DNA of 64,000 nucleotides from Candidatus Manganitrophus noduliformans (lineage in GTDB: Bacteria; Nitrospirota; Nitrospiria; SBBL01; Manganitrophaceae). Position numbers and translations under genes: made by a program. Under the pieces are notes generated by a model. It was not told the origin of the DNA and did not search any database. It worked only from the letters and a program-made list of their open reading frames with translations. This document shows positions 600 through 35,809 of this stretch, piece after piece. The stretch covers positions 620,001 through 684,000 of the forward strand of contig NZ_VTOW01000001.1 in the NCBI RefSeq assembly GCF_012184425.1, given 5' to 3'. Every line of letters begins with the position of its first letter. The first letter of the stretch is position 1.

Positions 600-673
600 C
601 GGCATATTCGTCATCTTCAGGTAGCCTTGCCTTGTATCACCGTCATTTCACCCTTTCACAAATGGAGGAAAAA

Positions 674-1405
674 ATGGATTATCGGACGATTCAGTTTTAT
701 GAAGATGGATGTTGGATCAGATCGATTGAATCGGAAGAAGAGTATTTGCAGGCTTACCGGCTGCGGTATGAGATTTTTTGCGAGACTCTCGGCTGGGTTC
801 CGGCCAATCCGACCGGATTGGAGATTGACCGGTACGATTCGTTTGCAACATTACTGGGGCTCTTCTCGGAAGAGAATACCCTTCTGGGAATGATCCGTCT
901 CCTCCCTCCGAACCAACCTTTTATGTTGGAGACCGATTTTTCGGATTTGGTTGCTCCCGGATACCAGATCCGCAAAGAGATCGATACCGCCGAAATCTCC
1001 AGGCTCGCGATAACACCCTCCGCAAAAGAACAAGGACTCTCTTCCCGCTATCTGAACATCCTTCTCAAAGGTCTCTATCAGTGGACCCTCGTCAACAACG
1101 TCCGGTATTCCTATCTCGAAGTCGAGAAGCGTTTTTGGAGAATTCTTCAATTTCTGGGGTTTATTTCGACGCCGATCGGTCCGGTGAAATGTCTCCCTCC
1201 GGCGGGCGCGAACTCAATGGCCGCTATTCTGGATTGGGAGGCATTTCGATCCCACAACCGGAATCGCCAACCTGAATTTCTCGACTGGATGACTACGGTC
1301 CAATCAGCCCCTGCTGTAGCGCCAGGGCAATGGCGTGTCCACGGGTCGAAGCCTGAAGTTTTGAAAGAATATTTTGGACATGAAAATTCACTGTCCGTTC
1401 GCTGA
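674..1405 (+). CDS. luxI: LuxI-family acyl-homoserine-lactone synthase
   Basis: This 243-residue protein makes an N-acyl-homoserine lactone signal from S-adenosylmethionine and an acyl carrier. All ten residues invariant in the LuxI family can be placed: R31, F35, W41, E50, D52, D55, R75, F89, E107 and R110 (in the segment EISRLAI). The start ATG at 674 was chosen because GGAGG lies just upstream at 664-668; the open frame extends further back to 548 without a ribosome site. A lux box (580-599) suggests positive autoregulation. The last 37 codons overlap the 3' end of luxR on the opposite strand, giving LuxI a C-terminal tail beyond the family core. The acyl chain cannot be predicted. Confidence 0.93.
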   Translation: MDYRTIQFYEDGCWIRSIESEEEYLQAYRLRYEIFCETLGWVPANPTGLEIDRYDSFATLLGLFSEENTLLGMIRLLPPNQPFMLETDFSDLVAPGYQIRKEIDTAEISRLAITPSAKEQGLSSRYLNILLKGLYQWTLVNNVRYSYLEVEKRFWRILQFLGFISTPIGPVKCLPPAGANSMAAILDWEAFRSHNRNRQPEFLDWMTTVQSAPAVAPGQWRVHGSKPEVLKEYFGHENSLSVR

Positions 1406-2048
1406 TATGTAAGATATGGGAGATTTCCCAGCTCGTTTTCCCTTCCTTCATCCAGTCCAGAACCTCCCGCTCGCGATGTGAGAGATCCGGATTTTGGGTG
1501 GAGGAGGGGGAAAGGGTTCGCATCAGCGCGACATGAAGGTGAGGCACAAGGTATTCGAGTATCGTGGCGTGACGGGTATGATCCGACATCGATTGGCCCG
1601 CGAAGGAGAAGATGCTCCCGACACTTCTTCGGTGACAGGCGACCCCGAGCGTAATCCCCTCCGATAGGCCGAATGTGTCCGCATCTCTAATAAATTTTAG
1701 CTCGCCTGGGGAGGTGGCTTGTCGATAGGTTTCCGACCAGATCTGAGTCTTAAATCGACCATAATGGGACTGAAGAATCGGATCGACTTCCGAATAATCC
1801 TCTTTCGTATAGAGGCGGATCCAGTCAAGGGGGTAACTGATGTTGACCATTTTCATGAAGCTTTGAAAACGGGTTTCGGCGTCGATCTTTCCAAGGCAAA
1901 TGATCGTATGTGTAGAGGGAATGAGCGCTTCGACGCGGGAGAGGAGGGATTTAAATTCTTCTTCGGTATTGACGCTCAGGGAGGCATGAATCAACTCTAG
2001 AACGGTGACCAGTTCATGTTTAGTCAAATCGGAAGGGACGCGAGTCAT
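1293..2048 (-). CDS. luxR: LuxR-family quorum-sensing transcription regulator
   Basis: A 251-residue two-domain regulator. The N-terminal autoinducer-binding domain carries the family's ligand-pocket residues W76, Y80, D89, P90 and W104 within YPLDWIRLY and YSEVDP. The C-terminal GerE/LuxR HTH runs from about residue 185 (LSHREREVLDWMKEGK) to the end. The start at 2048 is preferred over a GTG at 2078 because AAGGGAG lies 7 bp upstream of it. It is convergent with luxI and overlaps it by 113 bp, so the two are almost certainly cognate. A good promoter lies at 2138-2166. Binding of an AHL is inferred from the domain and neighbourhood. Confidence 0.92.
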   Translation of the reverse strand: MTRVPSDLTKHELVTVLELIHASLSVNTEEEFKSLLSRVEALIPSTHTIICLGKIDAETRFQSFMKMVNISYPLDWIRLYTKEDYSEVDPILQSHYGRFKTQIWSETYRQATSPGELKFIRDADTFGLSEGITLGVACHRRSVGSIFSFAGQSMSDHTRHATILEYLVPHLHVALMRTLSPSSTQNPDLSHREREVLDWMKEGKTSWEISHILHISERTVNFHVQNILSKLQASTRGHAIALALQQGLIGP

Positions 2049-2137
2049 CACTATCCACTCCCTTGCAGTTTTAAACACAAAGCTGGATTCTAGCGGAATA
2101 AATAAGGCTCTAAAAAGAAAATATAATGCCCGCTGGC

Positions 2138-2187: not shown

Positions 2188-2455
2188 AATCTCCTCGGCG
2201 CGTCGGTCACCCTTGTCTGAAACCAGACAATTCCGTCGCGGCGAAGGTCCGATTGTCCATCGACCGACTTGATGAGAAGAGAGAGAAATAATATGTGAAA
2301 TCAGTCCATTGTGTAATTCTGATGCCAAGTCCGCAAGCTTGGCATTCGATTTGCTCTTTAGACGTGCTGGATACAACGTTGTATTCCGAAAGCAGCGAAG
2401 GCGCTCTCTTCCATGATGAAGTGAAGTTTCTCTCATGGAGGCGGGCGTTTTTTTT
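2188..2455 (+). ncRNA. candidate structured leader/attenuator before the cyanate cluster
   Basis: No gene fits 2049-2473, but the plus strand is rich in structure. Helices seen are TTGTCTG/CAGACAA (2213-2219 with 2224-2230), ATGCCAAG/CTTGGCAT (2322-2329 with 2338-2345), an arm around the perfect palindrome ATACAACGTTGTAT (2371-2384) closed by TGCT/AGCA (2365-2368 with 2391-2394), and the terminator (2402-2455). GAAGAGAG at 2276-2283 is exactly complementary to 2404-2411, the 5' arm of the terminator. Pairing there would enclose the central hairpins and prevent termination. The 5' end is estimated from a weak promoter (2155-2181). No known riboswitch class was recognised; a free-standing small RNA is the alternative. 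Confidence 0.5.
2402..2455 (+). terminator. intrinsic terminator directly upstream of CBS gene
   Basis: The arms 2402-2416 and 2433-2447 pair over 15 positions with one mismatch and two G-U pairs. A 16-nt loop separates them and eight T residues follow (2448-2455). The next gene's ribosome site starts 5 bp later, so the terminator controls entry into the cluster rather than ending an upstream gene, since luxR reads away from it. Confidence 0.85.
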
Positions 2456-2473
2456 GTTTAAGGAGGAATCAAG

Positions 2474-2896
2474 ATGAAGCCGCACTACGCCACCGTGGGG
2501 GAGATCAAAAAGACGAATACATTATCGGCCCGGGAGGAGACGTCCGCATTCGATATCGCCCTGGCTCTCTTGGAGTCGGGCTTTCACGGAATGCCGATCG
2601 TCAATTCGAAAGACCAAGTGGTCGGAAAGGTAAGCGAGATCGATCTGATCAAAGCGCTGATGGAGGGGAAAGATCTCAAGGAAACAACGGCAGGCAAGGT
2701 AATGAAGATCTGCCCCGTTGTGATCGATGAGGCGACTCCCCTCGAAGAGGTGGCCCATTACATGATGCAGTTTCACCTTTTTCGGATCCCGGTGGTCGAT
2801 GAAGAGAATCATCTTGTCGGAACGGTGACCCGGCACGATGTCCTGCGAGGATGGATGGGGGCATTAGGGTTGACACAAGAAGGTTTTTGGGGCTGA
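2474..2896 (+). CDS. two-CBS-domain protein
   Basis: This 140-residue cytoplasmic protein consists almost entirely of a tandem CBS (Bateman) pair: the first covers about residues 10-65 (HGMPIVNSKDQVVGKVSEIDL) and the second about 75-130 (FRIPVVDEENHLVGTVTRHDVL). Such modules bind adenine nucleotides or similar ligands and sense energy state, usually by acting on a partner. The ribosome site AAGGAGG is ideal. It is the first gene after the leader terminator and stands 24 bp ahead of the first binding protein, so it is probably a regulatory subunit of the uptake system; that role is inference. Confidence 0.88.
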   Translation: MKPHYATVGEIKKTNTLSAREETSAFDIALALLESGFHGMPIVNSKDQVVGKVSEIDLIKALMEGKDLKETTAGKVMKICPVVIDEATPLEEVAHYMMQFHLFRIPVVDEENHLVGTVTRHDVLRGWMGALGLTQEGFWG

Positions 2897-2920
2897 CGCT
2901 GACCGATGAAAGGGGAAGAG

Positions 2921-4198
2921 ATGCCAACATCATCAAATAAGAAGAACGAGATCACCCGACGGCATTTTCTCGGCGCCGCCGGACTTTCGGCGCTCGGGGT
3001 GCTTCTTTCGGGTCTCCCGCCCCTGACCGGCGGACTTTTCGCCGGAACCGGCGACACCCCGGAGACGGCCAAGCTGAAGGTCGGATTCATTCCTTTGACC
3101 GATTGCGCCTCGGTCGTCATGGCGTACGAGCTGGGACTTTATAAAAAATACGGCCTGGAGGTGATCGTCTCGAAGGAAGCTTCGTGGGCGGGGGTTCGGG
3201 ACAAATTGACGATCGGCGAGCTTCAGGCGTCTCACATCCTCTATGGGATGCCGTATGCCTCCACCCTCGGGATCACCGGGGCCGAGGGGCAGAAAAAAGA
3301 GATGATCATCCCGATGGCGATCAATCACAACGGCCAGGCGATCACGTTGAGCGCCGATTTAAAGAAAAAAGGGGTGAACACGCTCGCCGATCTGAAGAAG
3401 CAGATCGACGCCGATAAGGGAAAGCGGACCTACACCTTTGCGATGACCTTCCCGCCCGGAACCCACGCGATGTGGATGCGCTACTGGCTCGCCGCGGGGG
3501 GGATCGACCCGGACAACGATATCAAGCTGATCACTATCCCCCCGCCCCAAATGGTCGCCAACATGCGGATCGGAAACATGGACGGCTTCTGCGTCGGGGA
3601 GCCGTGGAATGCGCGGGCGATCTTCGACGGCATCGGCTGGACCGCCATCACGACACAGCAGCTCTGGAAAAATCATCCCGAGAAGGTGCTGGGGATGACG
3701 AAGGAGTTTGCGGAGAAAAATCCGAAGACGGTCCAGGCGCTGCTGATGGCGATCATCGAGGCCTCTCAACACCTCGACAAGATGGAGAACCGTGCCAAGG
3801 TTGCGGAGATCATCAGCCGCAAGGAATATGTCAACGCGCCGACCGAGGTCTTCTTGGGGCGGATCCAGGGGAAGATCGACTACGGCGACGGGAAGACGGT
3901 CGACGATCCCGACTATATGAAGTTCTACCGCGACGGCGAGGTCACTTTCCCCTGCAAATCGCACGGCCTCTGGTTTCTGACGCAGCACCGCCGCTGGGGA
4001 TTCATCGACAAGCCGATCGACTATAAGAAAGTGGTCGATCAGGTCAACCGGACCGATCTCTACCGGGAAGCGGCCAAAAAACTCGGCATCCCGGTTCCGA
4101 AGGAGGAGTACAAGAAGGAGACCCTTTTCGACGGGATCGAGTTCGACCCGGCCGACCCGGAGGGATATGTCCAAAAGTTTAAGATTCGGAGGAGTTGA
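2921..4198 (+). CDS. Tat-exported NrtA/CmpA-type solute-binding protein (nitrate/bicarbonate/cyanate family)
   Basis: A 425-residue ABC-transporter binding protein of the nitrate/bicarbonate/cyanate type. A twin-arginine signal (R13-R14 in TRRHFLGAAG) leads into a hydrophobic stretch. The mature protein starts near KLKVGFIPLTDCASVVMAYELGLYKKYGLEV, the typical entry of this fold. The start at 2921 was chosen over ATG 2906 because AGGGGAAG lies just upstream. The permease and ATPase follow at once and cyanase lies downstream, so cyanate is the likely ligand, but nitrate, nitrite or bicarbonate cannot be excluded from sequence alone. A paralogue lies at 6015-7334. Confidence 0.87.
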   Translation: MPTSSNKKNEITRRHFLGAAGLSALGVLLSGLPPLTGGLFAGTGDTPETAKLKVGFIPLTDCASVVMAYELGLYKKYGLEVIVSKEASWAGVRDKLTIGELQASHILYGMPYASTLGITGAEGQKKEMIIPMAINHNGQAITLSADLKKKGVNTLADLKKQIDADKGKRTYTFAMTFPPGTHAMWMRYWLAAGGIDPDNDIKLITIPPPQMVANMRIGNMDGFCVGEPWNARAIFDGIGWTAITTQQLWKNHPEKVLGMTKEFAEKNPKTVQALLMAIIEASQHLDKMENRAKVAEIISRKEYVNAPTEVFLGRIQGKIDYGDGKTVDDPDYMKFYRDGEVTFPCKSHGLWFLTQHRRWGFIDKPIDYKKVVDQVNRTDLYREAAKKLGIPVPKEEYKKETLFDGIEFDPADPEGYVQKFKIRRS

Positions 4199-4200
4199 GG

Positions 4201-5085
4201 ATGGAGAAGGTGGAGATGGAGGTGGTGTTCCAAGCGACAGAAGAGGCGATCCGCGGGGCGGAGGAGAAACCGGCGCCGGGTCCGGAGATCACGGCGCGGA
4301 AGCGCCGGTTCCGTTTTCCGCGCCTCGATCGGCTGATCCTGCCGCTGCTTGTTTTCGCAATTGTGTTCGGAATTTGGGAGGCGATCAGCCGAACGGTCGC
4401 GCCGATGCTCCCCGGGCCGATCAAAACCTTCACGCACAGCTGGGATCTGATCCGCGACCCCTTCTTCGATCGCGGCCCCAACGATATGGGACTCGGCTGG
4501 CAGTTGCTCTACAGCTTAGGGCGGGTGGCGGTCGGGTTCGGCTTGGCCGCCGCGGTCGGTATCCCGGTCGGGTTCCTCGTCGGCGCGGTGCCGGCGTTTC
4601 ACCGGGCCGTCAACCCCCTGATCCAGATTCTAAGGCCGGTTTCGCCCCTCGCCTGGCTTCCGATCGGACTGGCCACCTTCAAAGCGGCCAACCCGGCCGC
4701 CTTTTTCGTCATCTTCATCACCGCCATCTGGCCGATCGTCTTGAACACCGCTTTCGGGGTTCAGAAGATCCCGGCCGATTATATTTCGGTGGCGCGCATT
4801 CTGAAGCTCTCCCCCTGGCGGCGGTTCACGAAGATTCTCCTGCCGGCGACCCTTCCCTATACCTTTACCGGCCTTAAGATCTCGGTCGGGATCGCCTGGC
4901 TCGTGATTGTGGCGGCGGAAATGCTGACCGGCGGAATCGGGATCGGTTTCTTCGTCTGGGATGAGTGGAACAACCTCAGCCTGGAACACATTATCCTGGC
5001 GATCTTTGTCATCGGTATCGTCGGCCTGATCTTGGATAACGCCATGGGCTGGCTTGGAAGGAGGTTTGACTATGAAGTGCGATGA
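4201..5085 (+). CDS. ABC transporter permease, nitrate/cyanate/taurine type
   Basis: A 294-residue inner-membrane permease of the NrtB/CmpB/SsuC type. A charged N-terminal tail of about 40 residues precedes roughly six membrane segments, the first around LILPLLVFAIVFGIWEA. The cytoplasmic ATPase-coupling loop can be seen around VARILKLSPWRRFTKILLPATLP. The GGAGGAG at 4188-4194 fits ATG 4201, two bases after the stop of the preceding gene; a TTG at 4195 would overlap that stop. Its 3' end overlaps the ATPase gene by 14 bp, indicating a translationally coupled transporter operon. Confidence 0.9.
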   Translation: MEKVEMEVVFQATEEAIRGAEEKPAPGPEITARKRRFRFPRLDRLILPLLVFAIVFGIWEAISRTVAPMLPGPIKTFTHSWDLIRDPFFDRGPNDMGLGWQLLYSLGRVAVGFGLAAAVGIPVGFLVGAVPAFHRAVNPLIQILRPVSPLAWLPIGLATFKAANPAAFFVIFITAIWPIVLNTAFGVQKIPADYISVARILKLSPWRRFTKILLPATLPYTFTGLKISVGIAWLVIVAAEMLTGGIGIGFFVWDEWNNLSLEHIILAIFVIGIVGLILDNAMGWLGRRFDYEVR

Positions 5086-5977
5086 AGCAACCGGTCAGGA
5101 TTTGATTAAACGGATCGAGACCAATTATCTCGAGATCAGCCGGATCGGCAAGACCTTCGAGGGGGCCAACGGCGTTTATCCCGCGGTTCAGGGAATCGAC
5201 CTCAAGATCCGCAAGGGGGAGTTCGTGACCCTGATCGGCCACTCCGGCTGCGGAAAGAGCACCCTCTTGTCGATGGTGGCCGGCCTGATTACACCGAGCG
5301 AAGGGGTCATTGTCTTGGAGGGAAAGGAGATCGACGGGCCGGGACCCGACCGGGGGGTGGTTTTTCAGAGCCATGCCTTGCTTCCATGGCTGACTTGTGC
5401 CGAGAACATTGCCCTCGCCGTCGAGTCGGTTTTTCCCCGGATGAGCCGGAAGGAGCAAAAAGATCGGGTCGGCCATTTCCTTGACATGGTTGGCCTGACC
5501 GAGGCGGCGCAGAAGCGGCCGGCCGAGCTCTCGGGCGGAATGCGCCAGCGGGTCGGGATCGCCCGGGCCCTCGCCATCCGGCCGAAAGTGCTCCTCCTCG
5601 ACGAGCCGTTCGGCGCGCTCGACGCGCTGACCCGGGGGCATCTTCAAGACGAGCTGCTCCGGATCTGGGAAAAATTCGGAACGACCGTCTTGATGGTGAC
5701 GCACGATGTCGACGAGGCGCTGTTGCTCTCCGACCGGGTCGTCATGATGACCCGGGGGCCCGCCGCCACGATCGGCCGGATCGTGCCGATTCCTTTCCGC
5801 CGTCCCCGGTCGCGGATGGAGCTGGTCCGCCAGTCGGGCTATCAGCATTGGAAGGGAGAGATCCTTGAGTTTCTCTACGGCGAGGGGGACGCCAAGCGAC
5901 GATTGGACGGAGGCGATTCTCATAAAAGCGATGCATTGGCGGAAGGCGCTGCGCTCGTTTCAAAGGCGGATAAATAA
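5072..5977 (+). CDS. ABC transporter ATP-binding protein, nitrate/cyanate type
   Basis: A 301-residue ATPase that powers the permease encoded just upstream. The Walker A is GHSGCGKST (residues 56-64), the signature is LSGGMRQRVGIARAL, and the Walker B is VLLLDEPFGALD followed by the THDVDEA switch. This order and the GALDALTR segment are typical of NrtD/CmpD/SsuB ATPases. The start ATG 5072 sits behind AAGGAGGT and lies inside the end of the permease gene. The C-terminal 45 residues are charged and variable. The second binding-protein gene begins 37 bp downstream. Confidence 0.92.
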   Translation: MKCDEATGQDLIKRIETNYLEISRIGKTFEGANGVYPAVQGIDLKIRKGEFVTLIGHSGCGKSTLLSMVAGLITPSEGVIVLEGKEIDGPGPDRGVVFQSHALLPWLTCAENIALAVESVFPRMSRKEQKDRVGHFLDMVGLTEAAQKRPAELSGGMRQRVGIARALAIRPKVLLLDEPFGALDALTRGHLQDELLRIWEKFGTTVLMVTHDVDEALLLSDRVVMMTRGPAATIGRIVPIPFRRPRSRMELVRQSGYQHWKGEILEFLYGEGDAKRRLDGGDSHKSDALAEGAALVSKADK

Positions 5978-6014
5978 ACGATACGAAAAACAATCAAAAG
6001 AAAGGGGGGATGTA

Positions 6015-7334
6015 ATGAAAAAGGAGGAGCATTTCCATCTGCAAAACCCTCACAATCATGACCCGGCTCCGGCCGGACCTGAGGAGGCGCTCGATCGCGC
6101 CGTCGAGGGGGCCGTCGTCCGGGCGGTGCTCCGCCACACGCCGCTCAGCCGCCGGCGGTTCATCGGCATGCTCGGCCAGGGGACGATCGCCGCGCTGATC
6201 GCGCAATTTCTCCCGCTGGCGGCGGTGAAGGCGGCCGCCAAAGATAAGAGCGGTCCCTTGGAGAAGACGGCGTTGAAAATCGGCTTTGTGCCGATCACCT
6301 GCGCCACCCCGATTATCATGGCCGGGCCGATGGGGTTCTACAAACGTTACGGCCTCGATGTCGCGCTGCTCAAAACCGCCGGGTGGGCGGTGATGCGCGA
6401 CAAGGCGATCGCCAAGGAGTACGAGGCGGAGCATATGTTGACCCCGATGCCGCTGGCGATCACTTTGGGGGCCGGCTCCCCCGCCGTCCCGTTCGTCATG
6501 CCGGCGGTGGAGAACATCAACGGCCAGGCGATTACCCTTCACATCAAACATAAAGATAAAAGAGACCCAAAGCAGTGGAAAGGATTTAAATTCGCCGTGC
6601 CGTTCGACTACTCGATGCACAACTTCCTCCTCCGCTACTATCTCGCGGAGCATGGCCTCGACCCGGACAAAGATGTGGAGATCCGGGTGCTGCCGCCGCC
6701 GGAGATGGTCGCCAACCTCCGGATCGAAAATCTCGACGGCTACCTCTCTCCCGACCCGTTCAACCAGCGGGCCGTTTTCGACAAGGTCGGATTTATTCAT
6801 CTGCTGACCAAAGAGATCTGGGACGGGCATCCCTGCTGCGCCTTTGCGGCGAGCCGGGAGTTTGTAACCGCCAACCCGAACACCTTCGGCGCCCTGCTGA
6901 AAGCGATCGTCGATGCCACCCACTTTTCGTCGAAGCATGAAAACCGCAAAGAGATCGCCGCCGCCATCGCGCCGAAGGCGTATCTCAATCAGCCGCTGCC
7001 GGTGGTGGAGCAGGTGTTGACCGGAAAATATGACGACGGCCTCGGCAAGGAGCATCATGTTCCCGACCGGATCGACTTCAATCCCTTCCCCTGGCATTCG
7101 ATGGGGGTCTGGATTCTGACCCAGATGAAGCGGTGGGGGTACATCAAAGGGGACATCGATTACAAAGCGGTGGCGGAGCGGGTCTATCTCGCCTCGGAGT
7201 GCGGCGAGAAGATGAAAGAGATCGGTTACCCTCCGCCGGGCAGCACCTACCAGAACCACACGATCATGAACAAAGTCTTCGATCCCGGAAAACCGGAAGA
7301 GTATATCAAGAGCTTCAGCATTAAGAGGATATAG
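6015..7334 (+). CDS. second Tat-exported NrtA/CmpA-type solute-binding protein
   Basis: A 439-residue paralogue of the 2921-4198 product. It has an unusually long, His-rich n-region (HFHLQNPHNHDP) before a twin-arginine signal at residues 46-48 (SRRRFIGML). The mature domain opens LKIGFVPITCATPIIMAGPMGFYKRYGLDV, parallel to the first protein, and shares the motifs GQAITL and PPPEMVANLRI. The start ATG 6015 follows AAAGGGGGG. With only one permease/ATPase pair present, both proteins may feed the same channel or one may be a sensor. Cyanase follows 21 bp downstream, linking this copy most closely to cyanate. Confidence 0.87.
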   Translation: MKKEEHFHLQNPHNHDPAPAGPEEALDRAVEGAVVRAVLRHTPLSRRRFIGMLGQGTIAALIAQFLPLAAVKAAAKDKSGPLEKTALKIGFVPITCATPIIMAGPMGFYKRYGLDVALLKTAGWAVMRDKAIAKEYEAEHMLTPMPLAITLGAGSPAVPFVMPAVENINGQAITLHIKHKDKRDPKQWKGFKFAVPFDYSMHNFLLRYYLAEHGLDPDKDVEIRVLPPPEMVANLRIENLDGYLSPDPFNQRAVFDKVGFIHLLTKEIWDGHPCCAFAASREFVTANPNTFGALLKAIVDATHFSSKHENRKEIAAAIAPKAYLNQPLPVVEQVLTGKYDDGLGKEHHVPDRIDFNPFPWHSMGVWILTQMKRWGYIKGDIDYKAVAERVYLASECGEKMKEIGYPPPGSTYQNHTIMNKVFDPGKPEEYIKSFSIKRI

Positions 7335-7355: not shown

Positions 7356-7799
7356 ATGATGACGAAAGTCGAAGCCGCCGAGGCGGTCGTCTTGGCAAAA
7401 AGCGACAAAAAACTAACCTGGGAGCAAATCGCCGCGGAGGTCGGCATGTCACCCGTCTGGACCACGTCGGCCTGTTTGGGCCAGAACAGCATGCCGAAGG
7501 AGGTTGCGGACAAGCTCTGCAAGTTCCTGAACCTCGGCCCCGAAGTTTCCGCCGCGCTGCAGGCGTTTCCTTACAAGGGATCGGAGACGGTGGTGCCGAC
7601 CGATCCCCTCATCTACCGCCTTTACGAAATCGTTCAGGTCTACGGACCGACGCTGAAGGAGCTGATCCATGAAAAGTTCGGCGACGGGATCATGAGCGCC
7701 ATCGACTTTACCATGCATGTCGAAAAGGTGCCCGATCCGAAGGGAGATCGCGTCAAGCTGACGATGAACGGGAAGTTCCTTCCTTACAAGATGTGGTAG
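7356..7799 (+). CDS. cynS: cyanase (cyanate hydratase)
   Basis: A 147-residue enzyme that converts cyanate and bicarbonate to ammonia and carbon dioxide. Length and layout match the family: an N-terminal HTH-like domain (about 10-65) and a C-terminal catalytic domain. The catalytic triad is intact as R88, E91 (YRLYEIVQVYG) and S114 (DGIMSAIDF), corresponding to R96, E99 and S122 of the Escherichia coli enzyme. The ribosome site is AAAAGGAGAAA. Its place after the transporter genes supports cyanate uptake and use as a nitrogen or energy source, or detoxification. Confidence 0.97.
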   Translation: MMTKVEAAEAVVLAKSDKKLTWEQIAAEVGMSPVWTTSACLGQNSMPKEVADKLCKFLNLGPEVSAALQAFPYKGSETVVPTDPLIYRLYEIVQVYGPTLKELIHEKFGDGIMSAIDFTMHVEKVPDPKGDRVKLTMNGKFLPYKMW

Positions 7800-24968: not shown

Positions 24969-25601
24969 CTATTCAACCAGCTTTTGTTGGATGGCGTAGT
25001 GGGTCATCTCCGCATTGTTTTTCATCTTCATCTTCTCGAGAATGCGGGTTCGATAAGTGCTGATGGTTTTTACGCTGAGTGAGAGCTCTTCGCCGATTTC
25101 TTTGACCGTTTTCCCGGAGGCGATGAGCCGGAGCACTTGAAATTCACGGTCGGAAAGCGCTTCGTGAAGCGGCCGCTCGGAAATAGACTCCAGGTTGAAG
25201 GCAAGCCGCTCCGCCAGATGCGGGCTGATATATTTCCCCCCTCGGGCGACTTTCCGGATCGCCTCGACGAGGTGATCCGGGGCGCTCTCCTTCGTCAAAT
25301 AGCCGGACGCCCCCGCCCGGAGCACGCGGACGGCGTATTGATCTTCCGGGTGAATGGTCAGCATGAGAACCGGGAGCTTCGGCCGCTCGCTCTTCAACTG
25401 CTTCAAGATGTCGAGGCCTCCGCGGCCCGGCATCGAAATATCCAGAACGATCACGTCCCACTGATCGCTCCTCATCTTTTCGAGCAGTTCCTGACCGTTG
25501 TGCGCTTCCCCCGCGACCACCATATCGGAGGTTTCCGTGAGGATCTGTTTCAATCCTCTCCGGACGATTGCGTGATCGTCTGCAATGAGAATCTTGATCA
25601 T
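24969..25601 (-). CDS. NarL/FixJ-type response regulator
   Basis: A 210-residue regulator with a receiver (D8-D9, phospho-acceptor D54 in VIVLDISMPG, T-and-K switch residues in MLTIHP and LTKES) and a C-terminal LuxR-type HTH (LSDREFQVLRLIASGKTVKEIGEELSLSVKTISTYRTRI). It overlaps the stop of the giant kinase gene by four bases (ATGA), so it is that kinase's cognate regulator. The HTH binds DNA after phosphorylation-driven dimerisation in this family. Targets are unknown. Confidence 0.95.
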   Translation of the reverse strand: MIKILIADDHAIVRRGLKQILTETSDMVVAGEAHNGQELLEKMRSDQWDVIVLDISMPGRGGLDILKQLKSERPKLPVLMLTIHPEDQYAVRVLRAGASGYLTKESAPDHLVEAIRKVARGGKYISPHLAERLAFNLESISERPLHEALSDREFQVLRLIASGKTVKEIGEELSLSVKTISTYRTRILEKMKMKNNAEMTHYAIQQKLVE

Positions 25602-28600
25602 ACTTCCTTTCCAACGTCGGTCGGTTGCTGAAGCGGAATCCGCACGGTGATGGTGGTCCCTTTTCCGGGGACGCCGCCGATCTGTACGGTTCCTCCCCAG
25701 AGGAGCGCCCGCTCACGGATTCCCAAGAGTCCGAGCGACTTCGAATTCGTAATTTGGTTTTGCGTGATCCCTCTTCCGTTGTCTCTGACCTCCAAGGTCA
25801 AGACTTCCTCGGTTTTTTCCAGGAGAATGGCGACCTCATCGGCATTGGCATGCCGGACGATATTGGTGAGCGTCTCCTGGAAAATCCGAAAAACCGCGGT
25901 GGACCGGTCGGGGTCAAGCAGAATCTCCTCCGGCCGAACGGTGAACCGGCAGCGCATCCCCGTTCGGTTTTGAAATTCCGAAACCTGCCATTCAATGGCG
26001 GCGGTCAGCCCGAGGTCGTCCAATACGCCGGGTCTCAATTCCGTCGAGATCTTCCGGAGGGTCTGAACGGTCGTGTCGACCAGCTTTGCCATCGATTTCG
26101 TTCTGTCCCGCAGCAGCGCTTCTTTTTTCGGCAGCCGTTTTTTCAGCCATGATAGTTCCATTTTTAGAATTGTCAATAGCTGTCCCAGTTCGTCGTGAAT
26201 TTCGCGCGAGATGCGGGTCCGCTCTTCCTCCACCATGGAGTGAAGCCGGCTGGAGAGGCTTCGGAGCTGCTCCTGGGATCGCCGCAGCTCCTTCTCGACG
26301 TTCCTTTGCTGATTTTCCAGGGCGATCTCCCTTTCTCTCCGGCGATAGCTATCGTATAGGACCCCCGTGGCGTGGGAGAGAATTTCTAAACCCGCTTGCT
26401 CCGTCCCGCTGTATCCGCCGGGGCGATTCGCAATGCCGATCATTCCGACCACCTCGTTTGCACGGACGATCGGAACGCCGAGGAAGTTGCGCATGGCGGG
26501 GTGTCCGGGAGGGATCCCTCCGGAGCGGGGATCGGCGGCGGCATCGTTGGAAATGACGACCTTCCCGCTTTCGATGACTTTTCCGAAGAGATTGTCGAAG
26601 CGGTAGAGTTCAAGATATTCCTGCTTTCCGTCCATCCGGAGGGCGTCTTTATAGAATGGACGGATCTGGATCGGTCCGACGTCAATTCCTTCGATGGCGA
26701 GAATCCGGAAGGCCGGCCCTTCCACGACCACGCCGATAAAGCCGTATTCGCTTTCCGTTTGGCGGAGGGCCGAGCGCAGAAGAAGCGAGCTGGTCTCGTT
26801 CCAGTCTCGGCTGTCGAGATAGGCGGTCATCGCGTCGGTGACCGCCGCCAGCTGGTCCGTCTTGATTCGGAGCGCTTCCTCCGCATGATTTCTCTCGGTG
26901 ATGTCCATCATCGCCCCGATCATCCGGACCGGCGTCCCCGCCGCGTCCCGAACGATATAGCCGCGGTCGAGGAGGGTCGCATAACTTCCATCGCCTCGCC
27001 GGAAACGATACTCCCCCGACCAGAGCTGATCGCCGCCGGCGATTGCACTGTGAATCCCCGAGAGGACCCGCTCTTTATCTTCCGGATGAAGCCGGTTTGT
27101 CCAAGACTCGATCCCCGGCTCGATCTCCTCCGGTTTGTAGCCGAAGAGGGTTTGAAGGTTCTCATTCCACCAAAGCGTGTTCGTGATCAGATCCCAATCC
27201 CAGACGGCGTCGTTGGTGGCGCGTGTGGCGAGATGAAAACGCTCTTCGCTCTTCCGGAGCGCCTCCTCCGTTTTTTTGCGATCCGAAATATCGGCCACGA
27301 CGGCGACAATTCCGGTCATCGTCGGCTCCGAGCCGGGGAGGGGGGCGACGGAGATGCTGATGTCGACCGACGATCCGTCCTTTCGGGAATGGCACGTCTC
27401 CAATCCGGTAAACCCTTTCCCTTCGCAGACCAGTTTTTGAAGAAGATCCAGCTCTTCCTCTTGATCCACGGGAAGGATCGGGAATCGCTGATTGAAAATT
27501 TCATACTCTCTCCAGCCGAAGAGCCGCTCCGCCGCGGGGTTCCACATCTTCACCTTTCCTTCCGAGTCGAGGGCGAAGATCGCCAAGGGAGAGGCATGAA
27601 TCAAAGCGCGAAGTGTCTCATTCGTTTCACGCAAGGCCTGTTCGGCTTGGCGGCGCTCGGTAATATCTTCGGCCACCCCGGCCACGCGGTAGACCTTTCC
27701 CGATCCGTCTTTGATCGGAAAGCCCCGATCCCGAATCCAGCGAACGGAGCCGTCGGTCCGAATGATACGATATTCGGTGTCGGTCGGCTCTCCCCGGCCT
27801 TGTTGCTCCATGGCGTCGAGAACACGGACCCGGTCTTCGGGATAAACCGCATCCAGAAACGATTTCGGCTGATCATACAGGCTCTGACAGGCGCGTCCCC
27901 AGATCTGCTCGTAGGCGGGACTGATGTAGAGCAGTCGGAAAGGATCGCGCTCCACGATCCAGAAGATCTCATGGATGTTCTCCGCCAGCTGTCGGAACCG
28001 GCGCTCTGAATCTTGCAGCTCCCGTTCGGTTTTTCTCGATTCTGTGACATCCTCCGCCAAAACGAGCCGGGCCTCCTTTCCCCGGAAGAGGATCAGATTC
28101 CAAGTGATCTCGGCCTCAATGAGGCTTCCATCTTTTTTTCTGTGCGTCCAGACCCCGCCCATAACCGGGTCCGAAGATGTTTCCCGATGCGCAGCCTCTT
28201 GGAGATAGCCCAGTAGGAGAGGAATTTCTTCCGGCGGGCGGATGTCGCAAATCGTCATCCGAAGGAACGCTTCTCTCGAATAACCATAATGACGGATCGC
28301 CGCTTCGTTGACCGCCAAGAAAGTATGCGTTGAAGGGTCGACGACCCACATCGGGTGGGGATTTCGATCAAACAGGAGCCGGTACTGTTCCTCGCTTTGC
28401 CGGAGCGCTTCTTCCGCGCGGAGGCGCTCGGTCACATCGTTGGCCAGGACAAGTTTGGCCTTCCTTCCGGAGAAGGAGATCAGATCCGATGTGATCTCCA
28501 CGTCGATTACCGTCCCGTCTTTTTTTCTATTTCGCCAGATCCCCCCCGGGCCGACACGGGTGCTGATCTGCGGAAGATTCTTAAGGAGGGTCGGAATATC

Positions 28601-31048
28601 TTCGGCGGGGCAGAGATCTGTGATCGTCATCGAGAGAAACTCCTCCCGATGATAGCCGTAGCGGGACACAGTCGCTTCGTTGACCGCCAGAAAAGCGAGC
28701 GTCTCCAGATCGAACACCCACATCGGGTACGGATTGTTCTCGAACAAAAGCCGATATTTTTCTTCGCTTTCCCGCAGCCGTTCGTCGGCCCGTTTGCGGT
28801 CGGTAATATCGACGACAAAACCGACCGTCTTCTCCCGGGAGGCTTCGAGGAAGGCGGCGCCGATCATCACAGGGATCCTGCTTCCGTCTTTGCGGATAAA
28901 TTCTTTCTCAAACGGAGCGCAGACCCCGGTGGCGGCCATCTCATCGAGGCCTTTGACGTCCAGAAGGCGATATTCGGAGGGGGTCATCTCTTTCCAGCTG
29001 ATTTCCCCCGAGCGAAGCTCCTCGCGGGTATATCCGACCATTTGAAGAAAAGCGTCATTGGCCTCCGTGATATTTCCGTTGACGTCCGAGAAAACAATGC
29101 CGATCATGTTGGAATCAATGACCCGCCGGAAGCGGCTTTCACTATTCCGCAGCGCTTCCTCCGCCCGCTTCTGCACCGTCATGTCGGCCAGAATGCCGAC
29201 GATCCCTCGGATATGACCTTGCCCGTCCCGCAACGGTGCGGTGGATAAGCTGACATCGACCTGGGAGCCGTTCTTTCTTTGGCGGCTGACTTCGAGGTTG
29301 GAAAAAACTTTCCCTTGCAGAAGCGCCTGCACCAATCCTTTAAACTCATTCTCTTTCTCTTTGGGGACGATGGGGTTGAAGCGGCCGATGGCCTCTTCCG
29401 GACTCCATCCGAAAATCTGTCGGGCGGCGGGATTCCATGTTGTTACTTTTCCATTCAGATCGAGGGTGATGATGGCCAGGGGGGAGGCCTGGATGAGGGC
29501 TTGAAGGGTGTGGTTGGTCTCGCGCAGCGCTTCTTCCATCTGTTTCCGCTCGGTGATGTCGTCCACGACCGCGACAAAATACTTCGGCTTTCCCGAGGGG
29601 TCGTTGATTTGAGAGACCGTGATATCGCCCCAAACGATCCGGCCATCTTTGCGGATATAGCGTTTTTCAAACCGATGTTTATCAGTCTTTCCGGCCGCCA
29701 GCTCCTCTCTCACCCTCATGCTCGCCGCCAGGTCGTCCGGATGGGTCATCTCTTGGAAGGTCCGTCCCGTCAGCTCTTCCCGCGTATAGCCGAGGAAGGC
29801 GGCATAACTCTGATTCACCTGAATAAAACGTCCTTCCAGATCGACCACGCCGATTCCGGAAGGGGCCCGGTCGAAAATGGCACGGAATCTTTCCTCGCTC
29901 TCCCGAAGATCGACGGTCATGCTCTCCGCGAGGTCGATGGCGCGCCGGCGCGCGGTCGTCGTCGACCAGGTAATGTAAGAGAGCAACAGGGAGAACGTCG
30001 CCCCGCCGAAAAGAATGAGGAAAGGAAGGGTTTCTTCTATTTCCGATAGGAAGGAGGCATGGGTGGAAAAGTAGATGTGCCAATGGCGACCTGCGATATC
30101 CAAAGAGGCGATTTGTGTGTATCTGGGGGGATTGTTGCCGGTGTTGGCGCCCAGGATGTCATTGCTGTCGTAAAGCAGGCTCTCTTTCGTTAGGAGGGGA
30201 AGGGGATTGGTTGTCTTCTCCATTCCACCGTCGAAAATCTCAAACTGAAAGTCGAGCCTGGAATTGCCGCCGAGGACCTCCTGCATGAGATCCTTCATGT
30301 TGAACGCGGAGGCGACGAATCCGATCAGGGCGCGGCGTTTCTCCTCCACCGTGGTCTGAGGCAGCCCATTGCGGTAGACCGGGACCCGAATGGAAAATCC
30401 GACCTCCTCGGTCCCGACCAGGATAATCCGTCCGGTCGAGACGGGATGACCGGTATCGCGCGCTTGTTCGAGGGCTTGCCGTCGGACCGGCTCGCTTCCG
30501 ATATCGAAGCCGAACTGTACCGGAATGGGTGAGAACGGCTCTGTAAATTCAATCGGGAAGTACTCGGGGCGATCTCCTTCGGGATGGATTGAAAAATCGG
30601 GATAACCTTTTGGACCGATGCTCGTATCGTTGCGCACCTGTCTTTCGAATGCAGCCCGTTCCGATTTAGGCACGTATCTGACAAAGATCAGATCGTAAAT
30701 GCCGGGATAACGTTTTTGTAACTGGAGCGATTCGATATATCTTCTCCAGTCGGCCCGGGTGATGTTTTGGTTCACCGCAAAGAGACCGCGCACGGACAGG
30801 AGGATATCTGTATACGTCTGAATGCGTCCTTCAATCGCCCTGGATGCCCTTGCGACGCGTCTGTCAAAACGAGTATGTGCTTTATTCTCAATGTTTTGTT
30901 GAGTAAAGTGCCAGGCGATCCCGGTGAGGGTCAGGGTCACTGAGAGGACAACGAAAGCCGAAGGGGCTAGGAAAAGAGAATGGATGAATTTCTGCAGAGG
31001 GTGAATGGATGCTCCTGGTGTCCTCTTCTGAAGAGGGGCTGCCTTCAA
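25598..31048 (-). CDS. giant membrane sensor histidine kinase: CHASE, eight PAS, GAF, NarX-type kinase core
   Basis: A 1816-residue sensor. A membrane helix near residues 28-50 and a second near 341-360 bracket a periplasmic CHASE-like domain. Eight PAS modules follow, beginning near residues 379, 508, 633, 757, 880, 1010, 1136 and 1262, each opened by a linker of the type LRESEERFR. A GAF domain (about 1389-1560) precedes the HisKA_3 dimerisation helix with the phospho-accepting His in ISREIHDELGQLL (near 1610) and an HATPase domain (about 1690-1810). The TTG start has AAGGAG 11 bp upstream. It is coupled to the NarL-type regulator. The periplasmic ligand and PAS cofactors are unknown. Confidence 0.93.
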   Translation of the reverse strand: MKAAPLQKRTPGASIHPLQKFIHSLFLAPSAFVVLSVTLTLTGIAWHFTQQNIENKAHTRFDRRVARASRAIEGRIQTYTDILLSVRGLFAVNQNITRADWRRYIESLQLQKRYPGIYDLIFVRYVPKSERAAFERQVRNDTSIGPKGYPDFSIHPEGDRPEYFPIEFTEPFSPIPVQFGFDIGSEPVRRQALEQARDTGHPVSTGRIILVGTEEVGFSIRVPVYRNGLPQTTVEEKRRALIGFVASAFNMKDLMQEVLGGNSRLDFQFEIFDGGMEKTTNPLPLLTKESLLYDSNDILGANTGNNPPRYTQIASLDIAGRHWHIYFSTHASFLSEIEETLPFLILFGGATFSLLLSYITWSTTTARRRAIDLAESMTVDLRESEERFRAIFDRAPSGIGVVDLEGRFIQVNQSYAAFLGYTREELTGRTFQEMTHPDDLAASMRVREELAAGKTDKHRFEKRYIRKDGRIVWGDITVSQINDPSGKPKYFVAVVDDITERKQMEEALRETNHTLQALIQASPLAIITLDLNGKVTTWNPAARQIFGWSPEEAIGRFNPIVPKEKENEFKGLVQALLQGKVFSNLEVSRQRKNGSQVDVSLSTAPLRDGQGHIRGIVGILADMTVQKRAEEALRNSESRFRRVIDSNMIGIVFSDVNGNITEANDAFLQMVGYTREELRSGEISWKEMTPSEYRLLDVKGLDEMAATGVCAPFEKEFIRKDGSRIPVMIGAAFLEASREKTVGFVVDITDRKRADERLRESEEKYRLLFENNPYPMWVFDLETLAFLAVNEATVSRYGYHREEFLSMTITDLCPAEDIPTLLKNLPQISTRVGPGGIWRNRKKDGTVIDVEITSDLISFSGRKAKLVLANDVTERLRAEEALRQSEEQYRLLFDRNPHPMWVVDPSTHTFLAVNEAAIRHYGYSREAFLRMTICDIRPPEEIPLLLGYLQEAAHRETSSDPVMGGVWTHRKKDGSLIEAEITWNLILFRGKEARLVLAEDVTESRKTERELQDSERRFRQLAENIHEIFWIVERDPFRLLYISPAYEQIWGRACQSLYDQPKSFLDAVYPEDRVRVLDAMEQQGRGEPTDTEYRIIRTDGSVRWIRDRGFPIKDGSGKVYRVAGVAEDITERRQAEQALRETNETLRALIHASPLAIFALDSEGKVKMWNPAAERLFGWREYEIFNQRFPILPVDQEEELDLLQKLVCEGKGFTGLETCHSRKDGSSVDISISVAPLPGSEPTMTGIVAVVADISDRKKTEEALRKSEERFHLATRATNDAVWDWDLITNTLWWNENLQTLFGYKPEEIEPGIESWTNRLHPEDKERVLSGIHSAIAGGDQLWSGEYRFRRGDGSYATLLDRGYIVRDAAGTPVRMIGAMMDITERNHAEEALRIKTDQLAAVTDAMTAYLDSRDWNETSSLLLRSALRQTESEYGFIGVVVEGPAFRILAIEGIDVGPIQIRPFYKDALRMDGKQEYLELYRFDNLFGKVIESGKVVISNDAAADPRSGGIPPGHPAMRNFLGVPIVRANEVVGMIGIANRPGGYSGTEQAGLEILSHATGVLYDSYRRREREIALENQQRNVEKELRRSQEQLRSLSSRLHSMVEEERTRISREIHDELGQLLTILKMELSWLKKRLPKKEALLRDRTKSMAKLVDTTVQTLRKISTELRPGVLDDLGLTAAIEWQVSEFQNRTGMRCRFTVRPEEILLDPDRSTAVFRIFQETLTNIVRHANADEVAILLEKTEEVLTLEVRDNGRGITQNQITNSKSLGLLGIRERALLWGGTVQIGGVPGKGTTITVRIPLQQPTDVGKEV

Positions 31049-32353: not shown

Positions 32354-35300
32354 TTATGTGTCGGTCCGGAAGTATTTTGCCTCGGGGTGGTGGAAGACGA
32401 GGGCGGAGACCGACGCCTCCGGGTCCATCATGTCGCCGTCGGTCAGCTCCACGCCGATTTTGGCGGTGGCGTCGAGCAGCCGGAAGAGCTTTCGCTGGTC
32501 GGCGAGATTCGGACATGCGGGGTAGCCGAAGCTGACCCGGATGCCGCGATAGCGGTTCTTCAGGACGTCTTGAATCGTCATCTCCGGCGGGTCGGGAATT
32601 CCCCAGTCGTTTCGAATTTTTTGGTGCACCCACTCGGCGAAGCCTTCGGCCCCCTCGATCGCGATCGCTTGAAGCAGATGCGAGCGAAGATATTCCCCCG
32701 CCTCCTTCAGCTGCGTGGAGAGGGCGCGGACCCCTTTCCCCATCGTCACGACGAAAAGGGCGACCGAGTCGATCTCATTCGAGTCCACATCGCGGCAGTA
32801 GTCGGAAAGACAAAGCCGCTCCCCCGCCGGCTGCCGGGGGAAGGTAAAGGTTTCGAGCAGGCGGGCCGGATCGGCCGGATCGTAGATCAGCAGATCCTCT
32901 CCCCGCGCCCGGCAGGGAAGATAGCGGTAGACCCCCTGGGCGGTGAGGGTTCGCTTTGCGAGAATCTCCTCCTGCATCGCCACCACGGAGGCATGAAGCT
33001 TCTCCGCCCGCTCGTCGCGGTCGGCCAGGAGCCGTTCGAGATTTCCTTTCAACCCCAAGTGCTTTCCGTAGAGCATCGACGGGTTGATGTACGCGAAGAT
33101 CTCCCGGAGCGGCCCCTCTTCGATTGCGTGAAAATCAAAATCAGGGGCCTTCGGCAGGGGGAGATCGCGCCGGACGTTCGATCGGGCGCGGACCTCCGAC
33201 GCCGGCTGCGGCTTCTTCTCCATCCCCTCGGCGATCTTCACCATCGCGCTCCGCTCCGTCTCGGTCTTCTTCAGAAGCCCGGGGCGCTGGGTCTCATCGA
33301 TCCATTGGTTCGCGAGATCAAGCCCGTTCATCGCATCCTTGGCGTAGAAGACCGGTCCCGGATATTCCGCGGCGATCTTCGTGTCGGTGAAGCGCTTGGT
33401 GAGGGCCGCTCCGCCGACCAGGATCGGTATGGTGACGCCGGCGGTCTTGAAGTCCTGGGCGGTGATCACCATCTGCTGGGCCGATTTCACCAGCAAGCCG
33501 GAGAGGCCGACCATATCGGGCCGCTCCTTCCGGATCGCCTCGATCAGCGTCTCCGGCGGGACCTTGATCCCGAGATTGACCACCTTGTAGCCGTTGTTGC
33601 TCAGGATGATCTCGACCAGATTCTTCCCGATGTCGTGGACATCCCCTTTCACCGTCGCAAGGAGGATCGTCCCGCGCGCAGCGGTATCGCTCTTTTCCAT
33701 GAACTGCTCCAGGTGCCTTACCGCCGCCTTCATCGCTTCGGCCGACTGCAGCACCTCCGCCACGATCAGCTCGTTATTATTGAAGAGCCGTCCGACCTCA
33801 TCCATGCCGGTCATCAGGGGGCCATTGATAATTTCAAGCGGCGTCGCTTCCTTCCGCTTCAGCTCCAAATCTTCAATAAGACCCTCTTTGGAGCCTTCGA
33901 CGATGTAGCGGGCGAGCCGCCCATCGAGGGGAAGATCGGCGCGGGTTTTCTTGGCGATCCCCTTCTTGTCCTTGAAGTGGGCGGCGAAGGCGGCGACCGG
34001 GTCCGCTCCCCGCCAGAAGATTAAATCTTCGGCGAGACGGCGCTCCTCCTCCGGGATGGAGGGATAACGCTCCAGCTTCTCGGCGTTGACGATGGCATAG
34101 TCGAGCCCCGCTTTGACGGTATGATAGAGAAAAACGGAGTTGAGGATTTCGCGACCGGCGGTCGGAAGACCGAAGGAGACGTTGCTGACCCCCAGGATCG
34201 TTTTGGATTCCGGGAAGGTCTCCTTGATCAGCCGGATTCCTTCAATCGTCTCCGGGGCAGAGCCGATGTAGTTGGCGTCGCCGGTTCCGACCGGAAAGAC
34301 GAGGGCGTCGAAGATCAGATCCCGCGGGGCCAGGCCGTATTTGTTCACGAGCAAGTCGTAGGAGCGTTTTGCGATCTCGATCTTCCGCTGGCGCGTGACC
34401 CCCATCCCCTGGACGGGGTCTTCATCGATGCAACCGACGACCACGGCGCCGCCGTATTTCTTCAAGAGCGGGACGACCAGCTCGAAGCGTTCCTCGCCGT
34501 CTTCCAGATTGATCGAGTTGACGATGCACTTTCCCTGACAGAGCTTGAGCGCCGCTTCGATCACCCGATGATCGGTCGAGTCGATCATGATCGGCGCTTT
34601 CACCTTCTTATTCAGGATCTGGAGAAAGGCCTCCAGGTCGGCCAATTCATTCCGGTCCGGATTGGCCATGCAGACGTCGATCACCTGTGCGCCGTTTCGG
34701 ACCTGCGCCCGGCCGATCTCGGCCCCCTCTTCGATTTTCCCGTCGACGATCAGCTCTTTGAATTTCCGGCTTCCGATCACGTTGGTCCGCTCGCCGACGA
34801 TCACCGGACGGTTCTCTTCCTCGATCAGAAGAAAGTCGATCCCGGACACGGCCGGTTTCAGCGCGCCCTTCGGGGTGCGCGGTTTTCTCCCTTCGACCAT
34901 TTTTGAGATCGCCGTGATATGCGCCGGGGTGGTCCCGCAGCAGCCGCCGATCAGATTGATCCACCCCTCCTCGACGAACCGGGAAAGCTTGGCGGCGAGC
35001 GATTCGGGGGTTTCTTCGTACTTTCCTTCTTCATTCGGAAGGCCCGCGTTGGGGTAGACCGAGACGAGGCAGGTCGCCATGTTGGCGAGCGAGCGAATGT
35101 GGTCTGTCATAAACTCCGGACCGGTGGCGCAGTTCAGGCCGATCGAGAGAATCGGGAGATGCTCCAGCGAGGCATAAAGCGCCTCCACCCCCTGACCCGC
35201 GAGCATCGTTCCGGTCCGCTCGATGGTGGCCGAGATCATGATCGGGATCTCGATCCCCATCTCTTTCTGGGCCTGGAGGATGCCGATCGCGGCGGCTTTC

Positions 35301-35809
35301 AGATTGATGGTGTCCTGGGCCGTTTCCAACAAGAGAAGATCGACCCCGCCTTCGATTAATCCTTTGGTCTGAAGGGCAAAGGCCTCGACCAATTGATCGA
35401 AAGTGACCCCGCCGGTGACGGTGATCGCTTTGGTCGTCGGCCCCATCGAGGCGGCGACGAGCCGGGGCTTGGCAGGGGTGGAATATTTCTTTGCGGCAGC
35501 CTTCGCGACCTGCGCCCCCGCGCGGTTGATCTCCAAGACCTTGTCCTGAAGGCCATACTCCGCCAGAACGATTCCGGTGCCGCCGAAGGTGTTGGTCTCG
35601 ACGATATCGGCTCCCGCGGCATAATAGGCCTCATGAATCGATTGGATGACGTCGGGGCGGGTGAGATTCAAGTTCTCATTGCATCCTTCCAGCTCCGGCC
35701 CTCCGAAATCGGCGGCGGTCAAATTTCTGGCCTGGATCATCGTCCCCATCGCCCCGTCCAGGACCAAGATTCGCTCGCGCAGCAGGGCTTTTATTTGATC
35801 GCTTCCCAA
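32354..35809 (-). CDS. metH: cobalamin-dependent methionine synthase
   Basis: A 1151-residue full-length MetH that methylates homocysteine from methyltetrahydrofolate through cobalamin. Domains in order: homocysteine-binding barrel ending in the zinc-ligand GGCCGTTPAHI (about residue 290), pterin-binding domain (about 330-610), cobalamin cap and Rossmann domain with the B12 motif DVHDIG (near 720) and the reactivation domain ending in RVSFGYPACP (near 1095). The start is TTG 35809 behind GGAGG. No cobalamin or SAM riboswitch was recognised in the 176-bp gap shared with serS. Confidence 0.97.
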   Translation of the reverse strand: MGSDQIKALLRERILVLDGAMGTMIQARNLTAADFGGPELEGCNENLNLTRPDVIQSIHEAYYAAGADIVETNTFGGTGIVLAEYGLQDKVLEINRAGAQVAKAAAKKYSTPAKPRLVAASMGPTTKAITVTGGVTFDQLVEAFALQTKGLIEGGVDLLLLETAQDTINLKAAAIGILQAQKEMGIEIPIMISATIERTGTMLAGQGVEALYASLEHLPILSIGLNCATGPEFMTDHIRSLANMATCLVSVYPNAGLPNEEGKYEETPESLAAKLSRFVEEGWINLIGGCCGTTPAHITAISKMVEGRKPRTPKGALKPAVSGIDFLLIEEENRPVIVGERTNVIGSRKFKELIVDGKIEEGAEIGRAQVRNGAQVIDVCMANPDRNELADLEAFLQILNKKVKAPIMIDSTDHRVIEAALKLCQGKCIVNSINLEDGEERFELVVPLLKKYGGAVVVGCIDEDPVQGMGVTRQRKIEIAKRSYDLLVNKYGLAPRDLIFDALVFPVGTGDANYIGSAPETIEGIRLIKETFPESKTILGVSNVSFGLPTAGREILNSVFLYHTVKAGLDYAIVNAEKLERYPSIPEEERRLAEDLIFWRGADPVAAFAAHFKDKKGIAKKTRADLPLDGRLARYIVEGSKEGLIEDLELKRKEATPLEIINGPLMTGMDEVGRLFNNNELIVAEVLQSAEAMKAAVRHLEQFMEKSDTAARGTILLATVKGDVHDIGKNLVEIILSNNGYKVVNLGIKVPPETLIEAIRKERPDMVGLSGLLVKSAQQMVITAQDFKTAGVTIPILVGGAALTKRFTDTKIAAEYPGPVFYAKDAMNGLDLANQWIDETQRPGLLKKTETERSAMVKIAEGMEKKPQPASEVRARSNVRRDLPLPKAPDFDFHAIEEGPLREIFAYINPSMLYGKHLGLKGNLERLLADRDERAEKLHASVVAMQEEILAKRTLTAQGVYRYLPCRARGEDLLIYDPADPARLLETFTFPRQPAGERLCLSDYCRDVDSNEIDSVALFVVTMGKGVRALSTQLKEAGEYLRSHLLQAIAIEGAEGFAEWVHQKIRNDWGIPDPPEMTIQDVLKNRYRGIRVSFGYPACPNLADQRKLFRLLDATAKIGVELTDGDMMDPEASVSALVFHHPEAKYFRTDT

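Follow-up and report, generated by a model that had tools for sequence, protein, structure and literature searches.

The leader that precedes the CBS/NrtABC/cynS cluster of Candidatus Manganitrophus noduliformans is very probably an ANTAR-type antitermination switch carried on a sigma-54 transcript. It lies in a 64,000-nucleotide stretch of contig NZ_VTOW01000001.1, referred to here as the window, and the coordinates given below are those of the window unless another locus is named. In the proposed mechanism, sigma-54 RNA polymerase, activated from 2213-2237, would start near 2366. In the default state, the nascent RNA would fold into a hairpin, P1, and an intrinsic terminator, and transcription would stop at 2448-2455. 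An active GAF-GAF-ANTAR protein would bind the hexaloop of P1 and then that of a second hairpin, P2. The bound protein would hold P2, the terminator would be blocked because the P2 3' strand (2403-2405) belongs to the terminator 5' arm, and the cluster would be transcribed. The signal for the switch is probably nitrogen supply. The elements of the leader are as follows.

2213-2237, forward strand: enhancer-like site TTGTCTGAAACCAGACAATTCCGTC (TTGTC-N8-GACAA plus AATTCNGTC), recognised by its conservation
2340-2355, forward strand: sigma-54 promoter TGGCATTCGATTTGCT (GG-N10-GC), conserved in related leaders; rpoN is present
2366, forward strand: predicted transcription start, 12 nt past the -12 C, placed from the sigma-54 elements
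2369-2386, forward strand: P1 hairpin, GGATAC[AACGTT]GTATTC, with hexaloop 2375-2380, A1 and G4, closed by C-G
2394-2405, forward strand: P2 hairpin, AGC[GAAGGC]GCT, with hexaloop 2397-2402, G1 and G4, closed by C-G, overlapping the terminator 5' arm
2397-2455, forward strand: intrinsic terminator, with 5' arm 2397-2411, 3' arm to about 2451-2452 and T-tract 2448-2455
2461-2466, forward strand: ribosome binding site AGGAGG, read from the sequence

The genes proposed to be controlled by this leader encode a CBS protein, Nrt-type ABC transport components and a cyanate lyase.

2474-2896, forward strand: protein with two CBS domains, encoded by the first gene of the cluster (Pfam CBS, 2e-23)
2906-4198, forward strand: NrtA-type substrate-binding protein (Pfam NMT1_2)
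4201-5085, forward strand: NrtB-type ABC permease (open reading frame and sequence motifs, read by eye)
5072-5977, forward strand: NrtC/D-type ABC ATPase (open reading frame, Walker A and signature motifs read by eye)
5865-7334, forward strand: second NrtA-type protein (Pfam NMT1_2), whose real start is probably internal
7356-7799, forward strand: CynS cyanate lyase (Pfam Cyanate_lyase, 7.5e-39)

The cyanate cluster is adjoined by two convergent genes with overlapping 3' ends, which encode a LuxI-type autoinducer synthase (Pfam Autoind_synth, 3e-11) and a LuxR-type autoinducer receptor (662-1405, forward strand, and 1293-2078, reverse strand); other species of the genus also have the LuxR-type gene at this position. 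Elsewhere in the window, the reverse strand carries two very long open reading frames, one of 1816 aa (25598-31048) and one of 1151 aa (32354-35809). A comparison with a plasmid collection returned no match.

The presence of a strong terminator ahead of the CBS gene, claimed in the original prediction, was confirmed: the stem begins at 2397-2398, and 18 bp lie between the eight T residues at 2448-2455 and the ATG at 2474. The 286-nt region folds more stably than all of 200 shuffled versions (z -4.2), the terminator stem covaries across the aligned leaders, and outside P2 the terminator is invariant at 19 of 51 positions in five species. The minimum-energy fold of the leader (-35.0 kcal/mol) includes the terminator, whereas the best fold with P1 and P2 enforced reaches -24.9 and lacks the terminator base. 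Given this modelled difference, termination would be the default outcome, and a protein would be needed to hold P2.

The antiterminator initially proposed was a long-range helix between 2276-2283 and the 5' arm of the terminator (2404-2411), in the manner of a riboswitch, with cyanate, an anion or a nucleotide as possible signals. The pairing itself exists, as GAAGAGAG at 2276-2283 is the exact complement of 2404-2411. Among shuffled sequences, about 0.4% contain this exact 8-mer, and about 1.8% contain some 8-base complement of the arm. The complement was, however, found in only two of 12 leaders, namely that of the window and one relative that is 95% identical to it, and in none of the ten others, which is an outright failure of conservation. 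It is situated in an unconserved stretch (2238-2339, 9 of 102 positions invariant in five species) upstream of the conserved sigma-54 promoter, and it very probably is not part of the transcript, since the predicted start at 2366 lies about 83 bases downstream of it. Moreover, a search of Rfam at gathering and relaxed thresholds gave no family reaching its gathering score in the leader. We therefore regard this explanation as scarcely credible, and the direct action of cyanate or another anion on the RNA, or of any small molecule through a riboswitch, is without support. The other option offered by the same prediction, an ON-type attenuator with a protein-dependent antiterminator, is well supported. 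That no known class was recognised is corrected here, as the leader fits the ANTAR-target RNAs; judged from its sequence, the leader is such an RNA and not an undescribed riboswitch.

The defining features of ANTAR-target RNAs are two hexaloop hairpins in tandem, whose loops carry A in the first position and G in the fourth, and the location of the second hairpin inside a terminator (PMC3369931, PMC8934654). In vitro selection (SELEX) with NasR added a C-G pair closing the loops (PMC7496416), and published searches also use a relaxed form, with the same loops and a single point variation permitted (PMC8164766). In the window, two tandem stem-loops with stems of at least 3 bp (6 bp in P1, 3 bp in P2) and hexanucleotide loops are present, each closed by a C-G pair. 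They are separated by a linker of 7 nt (2387-2393), within the accepted range of 2-25 nt (5-12 in the eut leaders of E. faecalis). P2, whose 3' strand is inside the terminator 5' arm (2397-2411), overlaps the terminator and is predicted to be mutually exclusive with it. The strict form, A1 and G4 in both loops, is found in homologues of the leader from other members of the class; in the window, P1 (AACGTT) conforms to it, but P2 (GAAGGC), which carries G instead of A at position 1 on a stem of three pairs, does not. Three of the four key loop bases are thus present, as the relaxed form allows, and the leader was placed among the ANTAR targets because published searches accept one variation. 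The window P2 is homologous to the GGAC[AAAGGC]GUCC hairpin of Nitrospira-family leaders, and a fully canonical pair, GAGGC[AATGGC]GCCTC with ACGGAC[AAAGGC]GTCCGT, occurs in relatives of that family. Of the 62 covariance-model hits, a dual-hexaloop descriptor recognised 22 in the strict form and 53 when either A or G was accepted at position 1; dinucleotide shuffles gave 0.4 and 1.9 on average. The test is partly circular because the 62 hits had been chosen by a model containing P1 and the terminator.

The conservation of the two hairpins follows the pattern expected of RNA helices. In five species, P1 is invariant at 16 of 21 positions and P2 at 10 of 12. The first alignment of the region revealed only P1 and the terminator, and P2 became apparent once distant relatives were added. 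When the pairing of P1 and P2 was laid over 17 leaders, aligned with MAFFT by sequence alone and with no fitting to structure, 90.6% of the cells held standard pairs and six of the ten pairs showed changes on both sides; in the slid controls, the maximum was 64% paired and three both-side-changed pairs. The closing pairs C2374-G2381 (P1) and C2396-G2403 (P2) are invariant in the 17 leaders. In the diverged leaders, the P1 stem appears as ATAC/GTAT, ACAC/GTGT or GCAC/GTGC, and its loop as AGTGTT, AAAGCT, GTGGGT, AACGAT or GAAGAT. The loop G4 persists while stems and other loop bases vary (AACGTT, AGTGTT, AAAGCT, AACGAT, GAAGAT, AAAGTC). These changes also bear on the possibility that P1 is a DNA operator, bound by a repressor or activator at +6 to +19, with attenuation at the terminator working by a different route. 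The palindrome ATACAACGTTGTAT is indeed perfect in the window, but in most relatives it is broken by loops such as AGCGTT, AGTGTT or AAAGCT while the RNA stem is kept. The stem pairs change jointly (A-U to G-C, U-A to C-G), as in an RNA helix, and the P2 sequence, too, is conserved. An operator at this site is therefore improbable.

Some relatives depart from this plan. In the group C relatives, the P2 loop is a pentaloop as aligned. At loci L044, L043 and L045 and at the group C loci, an additional A1/G4 hexaloop hairpin, for example TCCAC[AATGAT]GTGGG, is carried in the terminator apex, so that such leaders may offer three ANTAR sites. Because of this extra hexaloop in several relatives, the exact P2 of each individual leader is uncertain.

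A single ANTAR protein is encoded in the host genome, a GAF-GAF-ANTAR protein of 422 aa (E 4.8e-22), and its gene is unlinked to the leaders. The ANTAR domain aligns with those of EutV (E 6e-11), Rv1626 (3e-10; structure entry 1S8N, PMC8934654) and NasR (1e-5). Of the 11 residues through which EutV is said to contact RNA (PMC8934654), seven are identical in the host protein (R142, K143, K149, E160, M172, N173 and R175) and two are conservatively changed (K147 to R, Y164 to F), while Q and T stand in place of R168 and R177. For the first GAF domain, the best solved relatives are the GAF domains of a phosphoenolpyruvate-protein phosphotransferase. The two-hairpin leader could in principle be used by another antiterminator family, such as BglG/LicT, or by another RNA-binding protein, and a weak Rfam match to bglG-cis-reg (RF03530) does extend over 2361-2472. 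The match scores 18.6 bits, however, where the gathering score is 80, which leaves the leader outside the BglG/LicT class. The loops match the ANTAR consensus, and the leaders track ANTAR genes over 270 genomes and adjoin them in five, which makes a regulator of another family quite unlikely.

Sigma-54 promoters follow the consensus TGGCACG-N4-TTGCW (also written TGGCAC-N5-TTGCW), which is matched by TGGCATTCGATTTGCT in the window. The promoter is invariant at 11 of 16 positions in five species, and all 14 leaders of the genus (groups A, B and C) have a GG-N10-GC element about 30 bp ahead of the P1 core; the rpoN gene is present in the genome. From the conserved position of this element upstream of P1, the RNA is expected to start near 2366. 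A simple promoter scan gave no sigma-70 site on the forward strand of the window leader; in the f10 and f14 relatives, sigma-70-like hexamers stand at the equivalent place, immediately before P1. Farther upstream, about 110-130 bp from the promoter, the block TTGTC-N8-GACAATTCNGTC (2213-2237) is kept in nearly all leaders of the genus and is invariant at 20 of 25 positions in five species. With up to two mismatches allowed, its occurrences in the whole genome are confined to the three leader loci. The site, which differs from the NtrC site, is probably bound by a sigma-54 activator. A PAS-AAA-Fis sigma-54 activator gene adjoins the group C leader.

A DNA search of the same genome identified two further leaders of like build. 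The group B leader stands upstream of formamidase (FmdA), behind which lie an FmdB-like gene and urea-type ABC genes. The group C leader precedes a circularly permuted ATP-grasp/alpha-E/transglutaminase operon that is accompanied by the divergent PAS-AAA-Fis gene (L006 2025-3515, reverse strand, and 3846-5267, forward strand); the presence of the leader suggests a nitrogen-related role for this operon. Orthologues of the leaders were found in five other genomes of the genus. A covariance model (R1) built from 11 leaders added six, mostly much more diverged, to give the total of 17: one more locus of the genus, three genomes of the same order and two of other families in the class. In 20 genomes (L019, L020, L052-L070), R1 run with filters off gave only weak matches near the ANTAR genes, and the ANTAR-linked leaders were found in genomes outside that set.

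In a class-wide search of 270 genomes with a wider model (R2), leaders were detected in 35. Among the weaker hits, several (L099, L100, G022) resemble ordinary terminators. An ANTAR protein is encoded in 189 of the 270 genomes, in nearly all cases a single GAF-GAF-ANTAR protein. A leader was present in 34 of these 189, compared with 1 of the 81 ANTAR-less genomes (Fisher p 2.5e-5, a value that overstates independence because the genomes are related); the sole exception, G431, is 87% complete. In five genomes (G390, G410, G411, G412 and G211), no more than about 130 bp separates the end of the ANTAR domain from the start of the leader, and in G390 and G412 this linkage was also read from the upstream sequence. 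In several others, the leader lies 2-29 kb from the ANTAR gene on the same contig. The genes downstream of the leaders, named from sequence where there was no Pfam hit, are mostly nitrogen-supply genes; they include the following.

G027, G036, G034, G038: PII
G390, G410, G411, G412, G211: NAD synthetase
G054: NirC then CynS, behind glutamine synthetase
G364: CynS then nitrite reductase
G213: NrtA-type protein resembling the second NrtA-type protein of the window (5865-7334)
G031: GAF-containing protein resembling NifA-type regulators
G011, G012: porins

Several additional arrangements were observed. Two leaders in series occur in several genomes; in the Nitrospira family, tandem ANTAR leaders are placed between glnA and nirC-cynS (L104), and a leader is placed between glnA and cynS-nitrite reductase (L102). 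In the host genome, two tandem leaders with the canonical P2 loops AAAGGC and AAGGGC, and the sigma-54-like element TGGCATACCAGTTGCT in front, lie upstream of an outer-membrane beta-barrel protein (L110, G000:C1:200101-200181, reverse strand). A weak host leader with the hairpins GGAAGAC[AATGGC]GTCTTC and GGAC[AATGTC]GTCC precedes NAD synthetase (L111, G000:C3:368353-368417, forward strand), a recurrent leader target throughout the class. A further sigma-54-like leader (TGGCCTGCACTTTGCT) is found at L096 (G004:C1:264971-265044, forward strand), where the first downstream open reading frame with a ribosome site encodes a possible membrane protein of 73 aa.

Taken together, these comparisons of sequences indicate that the same switch very probably stands ahead of many nitrogen-supply genes throughout the class, Nitrospira included. 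More tentatively, and with the odds somewhat against it, one soluble GAF-GAF-ANTAR protein could sense internal nitrogen status (e.g. glutamine or 2-oxoglutarate), not nitrate, and gate the cyanate, nitrite, urea/formamide, PII and NAD synthetase genes across Nitrospiria. The results provide a candidate regulator and a defined RNA target for the choice among cyanate, nitrite and urea by Nitrospira and Ca. Manganitrophus, and draw NAD synthetase into a nitrogen regulon, together with genes whose role is unclear (a porin and the circularly permuted ATP-grasp operon). Within the open-access literature, no account of ANTAR RNAs from Nitrospirota was found; the phylum is unnamed in the main text of PMC3369931, and a 2025 comparison of Nitrospirales genomes treats cynS, nirC and transporters without using the word ANTAR (PMC12342949). 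The leader is very probably an ANTAR-target RNA, a known kind of element, in a phylum for which this search returned no report of it.

Among the closest known systems is NasR/nasF of Klebsiella oxytoca, in which a nitrogen-assimilation operon is likewise served by sigma-54, a one-component ANTAR protein and two hexaloops. The nas genes undergo Ntr activation at low nitrogen (NtrA being sigma-54) together with leader antitermination by NasR (PMC5424462), and the nasF leader has two hexaloop hairpins with a C-G closing pair and a preference for A1 and G4 (PMC7496416). The two-layer control by sigma-54 and antitermination is therefore not new in kind, because Klebsiella nas combines both (PMC5424462). 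The sensor of NasR is, however, a NIT nitrate domain, whereas the host protein carries GAF-GAF, and the target set here comprises cyanate, formamide/urea, PII, NAD synthetase and nitrite genes. In Enterococcus faecalis, the eut leaders also have P1 and P2 hexaloops with P2 inside the 5' side of the terminator, and the AC/GU closing pairs of eutP are the same as in the window P1; EutV, in contrast, is a phosphorylated response regulator, and the window P2 loop begins with G. NasS-NasT and AmiC-AmiR use ANTAR antitermination for nitrate or amide use, and the group B leader precedes formamidase; the host ANTAR protein differs in carrying its own GAF domains, and no NasS/AmiC-like partner was identified. 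A covariance search in Desulfotomaculum and other bacteria described multi-operon ANTAR regulons with PII and urea, nitrate and nitrite transporters (PMC3369931), the same kinds of nitrogen genes as those that follow the leaders described here.
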